Shown here piece by piece: positions 29,012-37,433 of a DNA stretch of 64,000 nt (positions are counted from its first letter, which is position 1; every line of letters begins with the position of its first letter). Below the pieces are notes generated by a model. The model was not told the origin of the DNA. It did not search any database and saw only the letters and a list, made by a program, of their open reading frames with translations. The stretch lies in NCBI GenBank assembly GCA_016934535.1, contig JAFGSQ010000007.1, forward strand, positions 1 to 64,000, in the 5' to 3' direction. A program made the position numbers and the translations under genes. Source of the stretch: a candidate division WOR-3 bacterium (GTDB lineage Bacteria > SDB-A).

Positions 29012-29857
29012 ATGAGCAAAAAAATAGTAAAAATAAAAGATGTCATTTGCGGAGGGAAGGATATCTTCCTAATTGCAGGTCCGTGCGTCATCGAAAACGA
29101 ACTTACCGTCATGAAGACTGCACGTATACTCGTTCGAGCCTGTGAAAATTTAGGCGTGAAATTTATATACAAGTCCTCTTTTCTGAAAGACAACAGAAGC
29201 TCTCCGGAAAATTTTAGGGGACCGGGAATGGATAAAGGACTGAAGATTCTGGAAAAAGTTAAAAACGAATTTGATTTGCCGGTCACTTCTGACGTTCACT
29301 CGGAAGCCCAGGCTTATACTTCCTCGGAAACTCTTGACCTGTTGCAGATACCGGCGTATCTGTGCATGCAGACTTCATTGCTTGAAGCGGCCGCCAAAAC
29401 CGGAAAACCCATCAACATAAAACACGGCCAGTTCGTGTCTCCGGAGAATATGAAATATCCTGTAGAAAAAGCCGAAAAAGCCGGTAACGGCTCTTTAATG
29501 TTGACTGAAAGAGGATATGTTTTCGGATACAACGACCTGATAGTAGATCCAAGAAGCTTCTACGAATTGAATAAAATCGGATACCCCGTGATTTTCGACG
29601 CAACTCACAGTGTCAGGCGCTACGGAATACCCAGCGCCCTACCCGAGGGCGGTAGAAAAGAATATCTGGCTACTCTGGCGAGAGCCGCCGTCGCTTCGGG
29701 AATTGACGGGTTGTTTCTCGAAGTTCACCCGTGCCCGGAAGACGCTCTTTGCGATTCTTCCAGCCAGCTCAGAGCTGATGAATTCGAAGAATTTATGAAA
29801 CCACTTATAGAGATTCACAATTTGATAAAAGGCGGATTACATGAGAATATTCCTTGA
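29012..29857 (+). CDS. kdsA: 2-dehydro-3-deoxyphosphooctonate aldolase (Kdo-8-phosphate synthase)
   Basis: 282 residues, the usual family size. It condenses phosphoenolpyruvate and arabinose 5-phosphate to Kdo-8-phosphate for lipopolysaccharide. Visible motifs: FLIAGPCVIE, YKSSFLKDNRSS, NIKHGQF, FDATHSVRR, FLEVHPCPEDALCD. Cys25 in AGPC and the later His, Glu and Asp are the residues of the metal-dependent class, where E. coli has Asn. ATG 29012 is chosen because homology begins there; a longer open frame reaches 28751 but reads across the divergent phosphatase gene. Its 3' end overlaps the transaldolase-CBS gene by 17 bases, so the two are translationally coupled. Confidence 0.94.
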   Translation: MSKKIVKIKDVICGGKDIFLIAGPCVIENELTVMKTARILVRACENLGVKFIYKSSFLKDNRSSPENFRGPGMDKGLKILEKVKNEFDLPVTSDVHSEAQAYTSSETLDLLQIPAYLCMQTSLLEAAAKTGKPINIKHGQFVSPENMKYPVEKAEKAGNGSLMLTERGYVFGYNDLIVDPRSFYELNKIGYPVIFDATHSVRRYGIPSALPEGGRKEYLATLARAAVASGIDGLFLEVHPCPEDALCDSSSQLRADEFEEFMKPLIEIHNLIKGGLHENIP

Positions 29858-30863
29858 TTCCGTTGACTTCGGCGAAATTGAAGAGGCTTTTGAACTCGGT
29901 ATCCTTAAAGGGCTTACGACAACACCGACTTTCATGCACAGGAAAGGCATTACCGACATCAACGGAGCGATAGTGAAGCTGTCCGGAATGGTTCCTGAAC
30001 TGCACGTTGAAGCTTTGGGAGAAAATTGCGATCAGATTGTTTCCAAAGCTCACGAATTGTTGTCCCTTCCGCTCAAAAACAAACCGGTATTCAAGGTCCC
30101 GATTTCAAATCATTCTATCAAAGCCTGCACCAGACTTGTTTCTGAAGGGAATCTTGTAAACATCCACCTGGTCTACACCCTCAACCAGGGTTATCTGGCG
30201 ATGGAAGCAGGAGCGTCATACGTGTGTCCTCTCGTAGGAAGGCTTCACGACCAGGGACACGACGCCATGCAGTTAGTGAGTGACTTGGTTGAGACGACCG
30301 ATAAGTACGGATACGACACTCAGATTATGGTGTCTTCGGTCAGGCATTCCGAACATGTAAGACAGGCTCTTTTAGCCGGCGCGCACGCATGCACAATACC
30401 TTTTTCGGTTTTGATGAAACTGTGCGACAATTCTCTGACGTCGGAGGGCACTACAAAGTTTTTTGAACACACGAAACTGATGACGTTGAAGGTAAGGGAT
30501 GTCGTCAGAAAATACAATCCCGTCTGCGCAAAAGACGAAACGTTGCTTGACGCCTTGATGAAAATGACTGAATCGAGACTGGGAGCCGTGTCCATAGTCA
30601 ATGAAAAAGGAGCTCTAACGGGCGTGTTCACCGACGGCGATCTGAGAAGGCATTTCGGGGAAAAAGGGAAGACAATCGTAAATTGCAAAATGTCGGATTT
30701 TAAGTATTCTCAGCCGGCAACCATTTCAGCGGATGCGCTCTTGTGTGAGGCCGTCAATTTTTTTTCACGCCACGAATACGACAATCTGATAGTCGTCGAG
30801 AACGATTCCCCGGTGGGTATTCTCGACATTCAGGATCTGGTCAAACTCGGTCTCGTGGGCTGA
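29841..30863 (+). CDS. Transaldolase/fructose-6-phosphate-aldolase-like domain fused to a KdsD-type CBS pair
   Basis: 340 residues. Residues 1-220 are a TalC/FSA-type barrel: Asp6 in FLDS, the Schiff-base Lys85 in FKVPIS, and YVCPLVGR align position-for-position with E. coli FSA as I remember it. Three conserved sites differ: TTNPS is TTTPT (Asn28 to Thr), position 109 is His instead of Thr, and position 131 is Leu instead of Tyr/Phe. Residues about 225-340 are two CBS motifs with GVFTDGDLRR and GILDIQDLVKLGLV, the pattern found at the C-terminus of KdsD arabinose-5-phosphate isomerases. It overlaps kdsA by 17 bases. Supplying or sensing arabinose 5-phosphate is a plausible but unproven role; simple transaldolase activity is the alternative. 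Confidence 0.85.
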   Translation: MRIFLDSVDFGEIEEAFELGILKGLTTTPTFMHRKGITDINGAIVKLSGMVPELHVEALGENCDQIVSKAHELLSLPLKNKPVFKVPISNHSIKACTRLVSEGNLVNIHLVYTLNQGYLAMEAGASYVCPLVGRLHDQGHDAMQLVSDLVETTDKYGYDTQIMVSSVRHSEHVRQALLAGAHACTIPFSVLMKLCDNSLTSEGTTKFFEHTKLMTLKVRDVVRKYNPVCAKDETLLDALMKMTESRLGAVSIVNEKGALTGVFTDGDLRRHFGEKGKTIVNCKMSDFKYSQPATISADALLCEAVNFFSRHEYDNLIVVENDSPVGILDIQDLVKLGLVG

Positions 30864-32839: not shown

Positions 32840-35005
32840 TTGACTGTTGGTAAAATGAAAAATGACTTTGGCTTCAGGACAAAGGCCATGTTTTTTGCCT
32901 TGCTGTTCCTTGCCGTCTCAGCCTCTTACATACCGTCCCTTTTCAATTCTTTATGCTACGACGACGTAGATTTAATTGAAAAAAATGCGCTGGTTCAAAA
33001 CGGCGATTTCACAGGAATTTTCTTGAAAGACCTTTTTAACGTTACAAGAGGTGAGTCGCCATATTACAGACCGATAATACCGGCGATTTTTGCCGCCGAG
33101 ACATTTTTGTGGAAGAAGAATTGGGCGTTTTTTCATTTAGACAATATCGTTTTCCATTTTATTGCGTCACTGCTTCTTTATAAACTTGTTCGAAAAATAT
33201 TGTCGCAAAATCCGACGGGTAAGAGCAAGGGCGTTTTTTTTCAAATGAAAAAACCGAAAGACGCCAAAAGACTTTTTTTGTGGAGTCTGGCAGCCGGTTT
33301 TTTTTTCGCGCTTCACCCTGCCAACTCTCAAACCGTCTATTGGCTTTCGGCCAGAGGTGATCTTTTTGTCGCAATAGCTGTTTTGTCAGGATGTCTCGCT
33401 TTGAGCTGTGACAGAAAGCTGTCCTACGGCGTAATGCCACTTTCATTTTTTCTGGCTGTTTTCAGCAAGGAAACAGGTTTTTTGCTGCTGCCGATTGCCG
33501 CTGTTTTTTATCTGCTGTTCTTGCGCAAAGAAATTCCGCTGAAAAGAGCGCTTTTGCACATTGTTTTTATATTGCCTGTTTTAGCACTATACTTGACTCT
33601 GCGCCTGAAAGCCGTTTCTGTTTCACCTTTTGCGCAGGTGGACGAAAGTTTCTGGATGCCGAAAGACGGTTTATTTAAGCTTTATCTGACGTTGCCTTCG
33701 ATTTGGGGATATTACGCGCTGAGAGCCGTGTTCCCCTATTTTCTGAATTTCGAAACCGGCATTCACCTGTTTCGTTCGTTTTTAAACCTGCAATTTCTTC
33801 TTGGGATTCTTTCAGTCGCAGTTTCAGCCCTATCGCTGTTCATTTTCAGAAAAAGCAGGATTTTTTTGTGGGCTTTTCTGGTCTGGTCCATAAGCCTTTT
33901 TCCCGTGCTCAATCTTATACCGGTGTTCGAATCCGGAATGGAGCATTACTTGTACATGCCTCTTGCGGGGGTGTCTGTTTTGTCACCTTTCGTTTTCATG
34001 AAAAACAGAATTTCGAAATTGGTTTTTATTGCAGTGCTGATGTCTTTCTGCACAGCTGTGTTTTTGAGGGGAAAAGTGTGGAAAGACAATTATTCGCTTT
34101 TCACGGATGCCGCCAGGAAAACAGGCGAAAACTGCAGACAGGGATGGATACGATCCAGAAGCAACCTGGGGACAGCCTGTCTCAACAGAGCGGTTGAGGG
34201 CGTGGAAACCGAAGAGAATCTGAGAAAAGCGGATTCGCTCTACAGTGAGGTGATAAAAAAACATCCCTATTACGGTGGTGCTTACATCGGAAGAGGAGAC
34301 GTGTTTTTCGTATCGGAGGATTATGAAAAGGCCGGTGATCTTTATAAGGAAGCACTCGAAAAGTATCCTTCCAATTATTTCCTCATAAACAAACTCGGAA
34401 TAACATACTCGTGCCTGAAGGATTATTCTCAGGCAAAATTGCTATTCATCAAAGCCGTTGGGATGAATCGGGATTTTACGGACGCCGCAGTCAATCTGGC
34501 AAAAATATATTTTATCGAAGGTGACATTGATAAGACCTCGGACCTAATAGGAGGCTTGAAAGAAACACCCGGAACCGTTCTCCTCATCAGAGCTTTGAGA
34601 ATATCCATCGAAGCATGCCGGGGAAGAATTCAAACGACCGGATCTGCAGAAGAAATTATTACTGCGATAGAAATACTCGGAGAAGCCGGTCATTTCGTGG
34701 AAAAGAAACGGCTCGCTGAATCTCATTGCGCCTCATCTCCATCCGACTCCGACGCTCTTTACAATCTTTCTCTTATATATCTTTCTGATTTCGGAGACAT
34801 GAAATCCGGATACACCGCCCTCACGGAAGGAGTTTCTAGATTTCCCGGAGATGTCAGATTTATGAGAGAGCTTGCCGTATATCACATTTTGACCGGAGAC
34901 AGCATACAGGCGGCTTATTATTTCCGGAAGGTATTGGACCTTAATCCCTCCCATCCCGAGGCACCGAAAATGAGAGAATTTATTGAGAAAACTTCGAACC
35001 GTTAG
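32840..35005 (+). CDS. Multi-pass membrane protein with TPR repeats (TMTC/GT39-like glycosyltransferase candidate)
   Basis: 721 residues. The start TTG 32840 has AGAGGA five bases upstream; ATG 32855 lacks a site. Residues about 10-420 contain around ten to eleven membrane helices. The first lumenal loop carries CYDDVDLIEKN and YYRPIIPAIF, the acidic-pair and Y-R-P pattern of TMTC-type O-mannosyltransferase relatives (DUF1736/GT-C fold). Residues about 440-715 are tetratricopeptide repeats (AYIGRGDVFFVSEDYEKAG, LYKEALEKYPSN, AAYYFRKVLDLNPSHPEA). Together this suggests a lipid-linked sugar transferase acting on exported proteins, which is inference. It stands alone, divergent from the PrsW operon. 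Confidence 0.82.
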   Translation: MTVGKMKNDFGFRTKAMFFALLFLAVSASYIPSLFNSLCYDDVDLIEKNALVQNGDFTGIFLKDLFNVTRGESPYYRPIIPAIFAAETFLWKKNWAFFHLDNIVFHFIASLLLYKLVRKILSQNPTGKSKGVFFQMKKPKDAKRLFLWSLAAGFFFALHPANSQTVYWLSARGDLFVAIAVLSGCLALSCDRKLSYGVMPLSFFLAVFSKETGFLLLPIAAVFYLLFLRKEIPLKRALLHIVFILPVLALYLTLRLKAVSVSPFAQVDESFWMPKDGLFKLYLTLPSIWGYYALRAVFPYFLNFETGIHLFRSFLNLQFLLGILSVAVSALSLFIFRKSRIFLWAFLVWSISLFPVLNLIPVFESGMEHYLYMPLAGVSVLSPFVFMKNRISKLVFIAVLMSFCTAVFLRGKVWKDNYSLFTDAARKTGENCRQGWIRSRSNLGTACLNRAVEGVETEENLRKADSLYSEVIKKHPYYGGAYIGRGDVFFVSEDYEKAGDLYKEALEKYPSNYFLINKLGITYSCLKDYSQAKLLFIKAVGMNRDFTDAAVNLAKIYFIEGDIDKTSDLIGGLKETPGTVLLIRALRISIEACRGRIQTTGSAEEIITAIEILGEAGHFVEKKRLAESHCASSPSDSDALYNLSLIYLSDFGDMKSGYTALTEGVSRFPGDVRFMRELAVYHILTGDSIQAAYYFRKVLDLNPSHPEAPKMREFIEKTSNR

Positions 35006-35017
35006 AATGTCACTGAT

Positions 35018-35728
35018 TTATTTTTTTAAAATCCTCAGGAAGCTGTCAGTAGACAAATTCTTTCTTTTGATCAAAACTTTGTCTGTTTCGCATCCTTTTG
35101 AACGGAAAATATTTTCAATGCGGAACACCTCTTCTTCACTGAAACTGTGACAAAATCTCATCGCGTCACTTTTTCCCCAATCCAGCAGAAAGTCCCTTGG
35201 CCGGCATTTGTCGGGAATCCGGTTTTTTTTCTGATCCGGGATTTTGTCGAAATTCCAGAGAGAGATCAGTGCTCCGGCTCCTTTTCCGAGCAAATCACAA
35301 ATTCCTTCAGCTATTCTTTCTCTCTCTGTTGCATCAGGTATGTGATGAAAAAGTCCGACGGCAGCGACAAAAAAGCAAGAGCGGCCTATTGTACTCAGAA
35401 TGTCCCCTGTTATTCGGGCGTTGACTAAATAAACTTCAGAATAGCTTTGGAAGCGAGCTCGCGCAATCTTGAGCATTTCGAGGCTTTGGTCAATCCCAAA
35501 GTACATAACGTCCTTGCGGCAAAATCTATTCATGAAAAATTTAATGAACCTGCCGTCACCGCAGCCGAGATCAAGAAGTCCGCTATAATCGTTGTCAAGA
35601 AAACCGTCCTTAAAAACAGAGTCCCAAGCAGAATCGTATCCGTTTCTGGATGAGGAAAATGAGAGAGCGTTCACGTCGTAAAATGTTCTGTTAATCAGAC
35701 AATATTTGTCTTTTTGTCTAGATTTCAT
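35018..35728 (-). CDS. Trm9/ALKBH8-like SAM-dependent methyltransferase
   Basis: 236 residues. The N-terminal NRTFYDVNALSFSSSR matches the Y-N-x-I-A-x-H-F-S-x-T-R element that precedes the SAM domain in eukaryotic Trm9. Motif I is LLDLGCGDGRF and motif II GIDQSLEML. The segment GLFHHIPDATERERIAEG, then a Trp after ALISL, and the C-terminal MRFCHSFSEEEVFRI follow the Trm9 order (VHH, ERR, LIYCWA, RYYHLYREGEL) as I remember it. Trm9 completes the methyl ester of mcm5U34 in tRNA after Elongator/Elp3 has made cm5U; here the gene is divergent from an elp3 homologue, 49 bases away. A general small-molecule methyltransferase is the alternative. No clear ribosome-binding site. Confidence 0.78.
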   Translation of the reverse strand: MKSRQKDKYCLINRTFYDVNALSFSSSRNGYDSAWDSVFKDGFLDNDYSGLLDLGCGDGRFIKFFMNRFCRKDVMYFGIDQSLEMLKIARARFQSYSEVYLVNARITGDILSTIGRSCFFVAAVGLFHHIPDATERERIAEGICDLLGKGAGALISLWNFDKIPDQKKNRIPDKCRPRDFLLDWGKSDAMRFCHSFSEEEVFRIENIFRSKGCETDKVLIKRKNLSTDSFLRILKK

Positions 35729-35741
35729 AAAAAACCCGATT

Positions 35742-35776
35742 CTGTGATAAGTTCACAGTCTGTGATAAACTCACAG
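35742..35776. promoter_or_regulatory. Two tandem 17-bp palindromes in the methyltransferase-elp3 divergent region
   Basis: CTGTGATAAGTTCACAG (35742-35758) and CTGTGATAAACTCACAG (35760-35776) are inverted repeats with perfect six-base arms (CTGTGA/TCACAG) and five-base centres, repeated with an 18-base period. The second copy ends one base before the elp3 ATG, where a Shine-Dalgarno should be. Likely a pair of operator sites controlling both genes, or RNA hairpins on the elp3 leader. Confidence 0.65.
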
Positions 35777-35777
35777 A

Positions 35778-37433
35778 ATGAAAACTGAAGAACAAATTAA
35801 AAAGCATCTTCTTTCGTCGATAGTCATTGCTCTGTGCTATAAAACTCCGGAATCCGACAAGGCATTAAGGAAAATACTACGCAAGTTTCCAAAAGACGGC
35901 AAGAAGTTATTCTCGAAAGCGGAAATATTGAACCATTACAGAAAAATGATCAGTGAAGGTTCTATGGAAAGAAACGGGACGGCGGAAGATTTTCTCGTCA
36001 CTAAACCGACCAGAAGTGCTTCCGGGATTACCGCAGTGACAATAATGACAAAACCTTTTCCCTGCCCCGGCAGATGCGTATTTTGCCCTGACGAGAAAAA
36101 TATGCCCAAAAGCTACCTTTCTAGCGAGCCCGGTTCGATGCGGGCGCTTGAGAACTCTTTCGATCCATACAGGCAAGTGACAAGCCGACTGACTGCGCTT
36201 AGCAACACCGGACACAGTACTGAAAAATCCGAGATAATTGTTCTGGGCGGATCTTTCAGCCACTACGATGAGGCTTACAGAATTGAATTTACAAAAGGCA
36301 TCTATGCGGCTTTGAACGATTTCGAAACCGACGGCGGCTCATGCAGAAAAACCGGTGAAGACGATCGCGGACAGAGGAATGAGCTCTCGTCTCTTTTTAA
36401 CGAACAAAAAAAGAATGAAAATGCAAAGGCAAGATGTGTCGGTCTGTCATTCGAGACAAGAGCCGACATGATAAACGAGAATGAGATCATATTTTTGAGA
36501 AGACTAGGCTGTACAAAAATTCAATTGGGCGTCCAGTCTCTCGACGAAGACGTCTTGAATATGAGCGATGTGGGCATGAAGACTGAAGACATCATGAGGG
36601 CTTTTATTCTTTTAAGGTCAGCCGGATTCAAGATTCAGGCTCACGTCATGGTTAATTTACCTGGTTCGGATCCTGCAAAAGACATGGAAACATATAGAAA
36701 GCTTTTCAGAGCCCCCCTGTGTCCCGACGAGGTAAAAATATATCCCGTGGCAGTCGTAAAAAAAAGCCCTCTGTACAAGAGATTTGAGTCCGGAGAATTT
36801 AGCTACTATCCCATCGATACGCTTATCGATCTTCTATCTTGCATGCTTAAAGAAACTCCCCGGTATTGCCGGGTGACTAGAATTGTAAGAGACATCCCTT
36901 TGAATTCTACCGCAGGTGACGCTCCTTCGAACAATCTCAGAGAAACAGTTGAAAAAGCCGTAAAAAAATCGGAAGGAAATGACATAAATATAAGGAACCG
37001 CGAAATAAAAGGAGATAGCCTGACAGGCGATTTAACTTATGTGCAGACGATCTATGATTGCGGACCATTTCAGGAAAGATTTATCGAGTGCATTGACGAA
37101 AGAGAAAAACTCGCGGGTTTTCTGAGGCTGTCAATCCCGTCGCAATATCTCCGGTCGAAATCTGAAGAATCTGTAAGGTTCCCAAAAGAGTTATCCGGTT
37201 CAGCCCTGGTAAGAGAACTGCATGTCTATGGAAAGCCTGCGGCTATAGGCGAGAAAAACCCTAAGAGAACTCAGCACCGCGGCATAGGGACAAAACTGCT
37301 TCAAATCGCGACTGAAGAGTCCTATTCAACCGGATGCAGGGTGCTTTCTGTAATTTCTTCGGTAGGAACTAGGAATTACTACAGAAAACTCGGTTTTATG
37401 GACGGAGAAATGTATCAGCATCGTTTTCTATGA
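35778..37433 (+). CDS. elp3: Elp3-family radical SAM/GNAT tRNA uridine(34) acetyltransferase
   Basis: 551 residues with both Elp3 halves. The radical SAM cluster cysteines are C96, C100 and C103 (PCPGRCVFCPDE), followed by SSEPGSMRALENSFDPYRQV and GGSFSHY, which are strongly Elp3-like. The C-terminal GNAT domain has RELHVYG, the acetyl-CoA loop QHRGIGTKLL and GTRNYYRKLG. The known reaction is carboxymethylation of wobble uridine in tRNA using acetyl-CoA and SAM. A charged insertion (about 190-215, with GGSCRKTGEDDRGQ) is unusual. The Cys spacing here is CX3CX2C, whereas eukaryotic Elp3 has a longer first gap. Bacterial Elp3 proteins exist but are uncommon. No Shine-Dalgarno: a palindrome abuts the ATG. 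Confidence 0.93.
   Translation: MKTEEQIKKHLLSSIVIALCYKTPESDKALRKILRKFPKDGKKLFSKAEILNHYRKMISEGSMERNGTAEDFLVTKPTRSASGITAVTIMTKPFPCPGRCVFCPDEKNMPKSYLSSEPGSMRALENSFDPYRQVTSRLTALSNTGHSTEKSEIIVLGGSFSHYDEAYRIEFTKGIYAALNDFETDGGSCRKTGEDDRGQRNELSSLFNEQKKNENAKARCVGLSFETRADMINENEIIFLRRLGCTKIQLGVQSLDEDVLNMSDVGMKTEDIMRAFILLRSAGFKIQAHVMVNLPGSDPAKDMETYRKLFRAPLCPDEVKIYPVAVVKKSPLYKRFESGEFSYYPIDTLIDLLSCMLKETPRYCRVTRIVRDIPLNSTAGDAPSNNLRETVEKAVKKSEGNDINIRNREIKGDSLTGDLTYVQTIYDCGPFQERFIECIDEREKLAGFLRLSIPSQYLRSKSEESVRFPKELSGSALVRELHVYGKPAAIGEKNPKRTQHRGIGTKLLQIATEESYSTGCRVLSVISSVGTRNYYRKLGFMDGEMYQHRFL

Follow-up and report, generated by a model that had tools for sequence, protein, structure and literature searches.

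A divergent gene pair in a 64,000-nucleotide stretch of DNA from a candidate division WOR-3 bacterium (contig JAFGSQ010000007.1, positions 1 to 64,000; hereafter the window) probably constitutes a bacterial module that turns 5-carboxymethyluridine (cm5U) into 5-methoxycarbonylmethyluridine (mcm5U) at position 34 of tRNA (U34). One gene encodes Elp3 and the other a methyltransferase resembling Trm9. Elp3 makes cm5U34, which Trm9 converts to mcm5U34, and eukaryotic Trm9 requires Trm112 to do so. Nearly all organisms modify U34, a task attributed in bacteria to MnmE and MnmG; mcm5U is regarded as a eukaryotic and archaeal nucleoside. An initial annotation, made from the sequence alone, had proposed that the two genes form a compact bacterial version of the Elp3-Trm9 pathway. 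Family assignment, pairing and genomic co-occurrence support this proposal; cm5U as the substrate, mcm5U as the product, U34 as the site and coregulation of the genes are what we infer from the analysis.

The open reading frames (ORFs), their strands and the 49 bases separating the ATG of elp3 from that of the methyltransferase gene were exactly as initially described. The 551-amino acid protein is a full-length Elp3. It scored 401.6 bits against TIGR01211, whose curated cut-off is 350, and a domain search found the radical SAM, radical-SAM-C and GNAT domains, in agreement with the radical SAM and GNAT halves that had been assigned to it. Ten partner Elp3s of other phyla scored 440–579 bits against the same model. 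The nearest solved structure was Elp3 of D. mccartyi (5l7j, E=1e-80), and alignment to the solved D. mccartyi, yeast and archaeal Elp3s placed the CxxxCxxC cluster cysteines at C96, C100 and C103. Mutating E207, K302, Y304, K266 or Y517 of M. infernus Elp3 abolishes or strongly reduces activity (PMC13315578, PMC6367351), and these residues align with E226, K320, Y322, K285 and Y534 of the window protein, respectively. E480 corresponds to Q461 in M. infernus and E386 in D. mccartyi, and the residues at all tested catalytic or acetyl-CoA positions are in place. The window Elp3 also has an N-terminal extension of ∼75 amino acids that the D. mccartyi protein does not have.

By Pfam, the product of the neighbouring gene (METHYLTRANSFERASE, encoded at 35018–35728) is a class I methyltransferase. 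It passed no specific NCBIfam cut-off, and the single sequence gave weak UbiE and CmoA matches far under theirs. The N-terminal FYDVNALSFSSSR element and the late HSFSEEE motif noted initially as Trm9-like features are both present; the HH-x6-ERE segment described with them also exists, although its spacing is HH-x5-ERE (HHIPDATERE). When the window sequence alone was searched against the PDB, Trm9 (5cm2) was the top match at a suggestive E=1.7e-4, and with a four-row family profile a juvenile hormone methyltransferase came out slightly ahead of Trm9. This ambiguity was settled by a profile of 48 family members, which ranked 5cm2 first in the whole PDB (E=2.8e-28), with an alignment spanning the R29 region to the D-x-L-x-W and R-Y-x-H segments of the lid and C-terminal region. 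A family profile rich in Patescibacteria likewise had 5cm2 as its first match (E=1.3e-30). Scored with a family hidden Markov model, yeast Trm9 reached 113 bits (the query sequence had the published residues at their published numbers and matched Trm9 of the solved Yarrowia structure at E=4e-71) and Yarrowia Trm9 104 bits, against 50 for Tam, 45 for UbiG, 44 for RlmA, 39 each for CmoM and UbiE, 34 for BioC, 32 for CmoA and 21 for CmoB, all from E. coli. By sequence profile, the methyltransferase is nearest to eukaryotic Trm9 among solved structures. The comparison with CmoA, CmoM and UbiE, which had been suggested as a check, thus upheld the Trm9 likeness, and assignment to a non-tRNA family such as the ubiquinone or small-molecule methyltransferases, which would have spoken against the proposal, was not found.

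A tree of the bacterial family resolved two subfamilies: subfamily I, which includes the window protein and has 100% support, and subfamily II, which comes mostly from Patescibacteria. Yeast Trm9 is impaired both in binding tRNA and in catalysis when R29, H115, R241, Y243 or N271 is mutated to alanine (PMC5372719). In the alignment, R29 is kept in 63 of 63 bacterial family members, H115 in 57, R241 in 58 and N271 in 54 of them; R28, H128 and R191 of the window protein are the equivalents of R29, H115 and R241. In subfamily II, Y243 is kept in 30 of 40 sequences and most members have all five Trm9 residues, and in subfamily I the residues R29, H115, R241 and H244 are fully conserved. An AlphaFold2 (AF2) model of a subfamily II protein (predicted local distance difference test (pLDDT) score 97) had 5cm2 as its first Foldseek match (TM 0.83 on the target); for the model of the window protein (pLDDT 88), 5cm2 ranked second behind an unrelated methyltransferase. 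In both models a pair of strands coincides with the D-x-x-L-x-W and R-x-C-H segments and would match the Trm9 lid as described previously (PMC5372719).

The neighbourhood and co-occurrence survey proposed along with the initial annotation found the pair conserved in, and far beyond, relatives of the window bacterium. The window phylum was represented by four genomes, three of the window genus and G003. All three of the genus carry the head-to-head pair, with gaps of 49, 34 and 30 bp, and as the flanking tetratricopeptide repeat (TPR) protein and transporter genes are conserved too, pairing within the genus shows little by itself. When GTDB representatives were scanned with the methyltransferase alignment only, so that Elp3 played no part in the selection, 80 named loci came out. 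Fifty-nine scored at least 80 bits, of which 41 carried elp3, as did none of the 21 weaker loci. The two genes were head-to-head in 41 of 41 elp3-bearing loci, with start codons at most ∼350 bp apart in all but two; the median gap over 46 analysed pairs was 43 bp. Because the head-to-head arrangement occurs in both congeners and in 41 of 80 scanned loci, the pairing is far beyond chance. The hosts belong to Fermentibacterota, Chloroflexota, Acidobacteriota, Myxococcota and many Patescibacteria, and those named include Fermentibacteria, Caldilineaceae, Anaerolineae, Thermoanaerobaculia and Dojkabacteria. Flanks differ between phyla, and no third gene recurring across phyla was found beside the pair. 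Microsynteny within the genus was rejected as a full account of the pairing, as distant loci have in common only the pair. Pairwise distances of Elp3 and methyltransferase correlated at r=0.83 (45 pairs; 0 of 2000 permutations as high), which fits joint inheritance as well as a shared species history. The start codons of the two genes meet or overlap at a dozen loci, a hint that the divergent transcripts may be leaderless; distant lineages are among them, with CATG in L126, L128, L131, L136, L147 and L163 and CATATG in L150 and L152.

Across a sample of 386 diverse bacterial genomes, Elp3 exceeded the TIGR01211 cut-off in eight. The methyltransferase profile scored 128–230 bits in exactly these eight and reached at most 92 bits, with partial matches, elsewhere (0 of 378). 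In two other genomes of the sample (G070 and G211), Elp3 was short and scored under the cut-off, and there was no Trm9-like gene. MnmG was above its cut-off in 329 of the 386 genomes (85%). Six of the Elp3 genomes belong to phyla other than that of the window, and MnmG reached the cut-off in none of these six, a pattern expected about once in 100,000 under independence by a hand calculation that ignores relatedness and genome incompleteness. MnmG was also absent from 33 of 34 paired genomes sampled outside the window phylum. The exception is an Ignavibacteriales metagenome-assembled genome (G407), whose locus L147 matches the Patescibacteria locus L163 in Elp3 (68%), methyltransferase (60%) and flanking genes. 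Because of this match, L147 is likely a Komeilibacteria contig mis-binned into G407. Some of the genomes with the pair but without MnmG are Patescibacteria, which may lack MnmG for other reasons.

In the proposed mechanism, Elp3 would use S-adenosylmethionine (SAM) and acetyl-CoA to add a carboxymethyl group to C5 of U34, and the Trm9-like methyltransferase would use SAM to esterify the carboxylate of the resulting cm5U34 to mcm5U34. One short divergent promoter region would drive both genes. The pair would replace the MnmE/MnmG pathway in most bacterial hosts; in the window phylum it would coexist with MnmG and may serve a subset of tRNAs. We consider it fairly likely that the canonical MnmE/MnmG route has been abandoned in many bacteria of the Chloroflexota, Fermentibacterota, Myxococcota, Acidobacteriota and Patescibacteria for an Elp3 plus Trm9-type route to mcm5U34, whose methyltransferase would often work without Trm112.

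Several observations weigh against this reading. MnmG is present in four of four window-phylum genomes, and therefore the pair is no simple replacement there. The two genes lie on different contigs in G003 and G257, and elp3 was not seen in the fetched stretch at the Trm9-like loci L122, L124, L141, L143, L149, L159 and L173. The window methyltransferase has C193 at the position of Trm9 Y243 and a serine in the N271 column, and Y243 is replaced by C, V or A in 23 of 23 subfamily I members. A larger tree groups the bacterial family with archaeal and eukaryotic Trm9 at a weak support of 80, and an approximately unbiased test rejected neither the Trm9 clade (p-AU 0.207) nor a rival tree (p-AU 0.152); orthology with Trm9 does not follow from the deep tree by itself. 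Finally, a Trm112-like protein was detected in 17 of 38 paired genomes, so an obligatory Trm112 partner is not general. Each of the three window-genus genomes has it as a free protein of 61 amino acids, and it was not found in G003 or in nearly all pair-bearing Patescibacteria. Judged from gene content, the bacterial Trm9-like enzymes would be either autonomous or dependent on another partner, and the module is apparently Trm112-independent in many hosts.

The substitutions at Y243 and N271, together with the distinctness of the two subfamilies, would fit a methyltransferase that acts with Elp3 on U34 but makes another product, with subfamily I methylating a different Elp3-derived side chain such as a thiolated or further modified cm5U. 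We regard this as unlikely, as R29, H115, R241 and H244 are invariant in subfamily I, and gene order and Elp3 partner are the same in both subfamilies. A still less probable explanation, strongly disfavoured here, is that a CmoM-, CmoA- or UbiE-like methyltransferase lies beside elp3 by shared ancestry or chance. The generic Pfam assignment, the weak NCBIfam matches of the single window sequence, the undecided deep tree and the Foldseek ranking of the window model all leave room for it, but the controls scored far under Trm9, no cut-off of these families was reached, and the pair is kept across phyla with changing flanks and with a co-occurrence of 8 of 8 against 0 of 378.

Alternatively, the two proteins could be functionally linked outside tRNA modification, with Elp3 acting as an acetyltransferase on proteins or other substrates and the methyltransferase acting on the product of its partner. 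This idea draws on the weak activity of D. mccartyi Elp3, the bacterial Elp3 that has been tested (PMC7663514). We consider it the most improbable of the alternatives: the window Elp3 has every tested residue for tRNA modification as well as the N-terminal extension missing from the D. mccartyi protein, and all but one of the 34 paired genomes sampled from other phyla are without MnmG.

The cm5U-to-mcm5U34 module proposed here resembles eukaryotic Elongator with Trm9-Trm112 or ALKBH8-TRMT112 in its two catalytic folds and Elp3 catalytic residues, and the bacterial methyltransferases share with eukaryotic Trm9 the equivalents of R29, H115 and R241 and the lid strands (DxLxW, RxxH). It differs in the head-to-head genes, in the many hosts without Trm112 and in the C or V of subfamily I at Y243. 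Elp3 and Trm9 genes are clustered in Sulfolobus solfataricus (PMC2584109), and mcm5U has been reported in Haloferax volcanii (PMC7663514). Archaea also combine a single-subunit Elp3 with a Trm9 homologue, with clustered genes in one archaeon, whereas the bacterial pair has two subfamilies, an invariant divergent orientation where linked and an anti-correlation with MnmG. D. mccartyi Elp3, the best PDB match of the window Elp3, is likewise a bacterial single-subunit enzyme, but its N-terminus is short and it is only weakly active (PMC7663514). The MnmE/MnmG pathway to xm5U34, completed by MnmC or MnmM, also targets C5 of the same U34 with methylation last, through unrelated chemistry and enzymes. 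A 2017 review stated that no bacterial genes similar to the methyltransferase partners of Trm112 were detectable (PMC5372719), a 2020 review named bacterial Elp3 only in Dehalococcoides (PMC7663514), and a 2026 paper reports Elp3 in numerous bacteria. In line with the initial remark that no described bacterial operon or divergon of this type was known to the annotator, our literature search, whose reach did not extend to subscription papers and preprints, found no bacterial Elp3-Trm9 pair. If the pair functions as proposed, its occurrence where MnmG is absent would account for the way in which those lineages decode split codon boxes. The two-gene module would also offer a minimal system of single-polypeptide Elp3 plus Trm9 for work on mechanism and structure, and one piece of evidence on how the eukaryotic pathway arose.

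Table 1. Features of the divergent elp3-methyltransferase locus in the window.
Feature	Position	Strand	Length	Basis
Trm9-like class I SAM-dependent methyltransferase, bacterial subfamily I	35018..35728	-	236 aa	ORF; Pfam, profiles, AF2
Divergent intergenic region, putative shared promoter region	35729..35777		49 bp	ORF coordinates
Putative operator copy 1, CTGTGA-N5-TCACAG inverted repeat	35742..35758			Exact match
Putative operator copy 2, CTGTGA-N5-TCACAG	35760..35776			Exact match; 18 bp from copy 1
Elp3, radical SAM + GNAT (KAT), predicted tRNA cm5U34 enzyme	35778..37433	+	551 aa	ORF; TIGR01211

Most of the gap between the two genes is occupied by tandem CTGTGA-N5-TCACAG repeats (Table 1). 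With two mismatches allowed, the motif occurs six times in the window against 1.4 expected; no exact copy was found in the other fetched loci, including the gaps of both congeners. This suggests a putative operator for a shared regulator in the window species only. A search of the gap for a sigma-70-like promoter gave one weak match, no better than chance. No tRNA genes were found in the window. The methyltransferase gene is convergent with a gene at 32840–35005, with 12 bp between the stops, that encodes a membrane protein with C-terminal TPR repeats and also adjoins the methyltransferase gene in both congeners. Elsewhere in the window, the ORF at 29841–30863 appears by eye to join a transaldolase-like N-terminal part to a paired-CBS-like C-terminal part, which would be an unusual fusion if confirmed.
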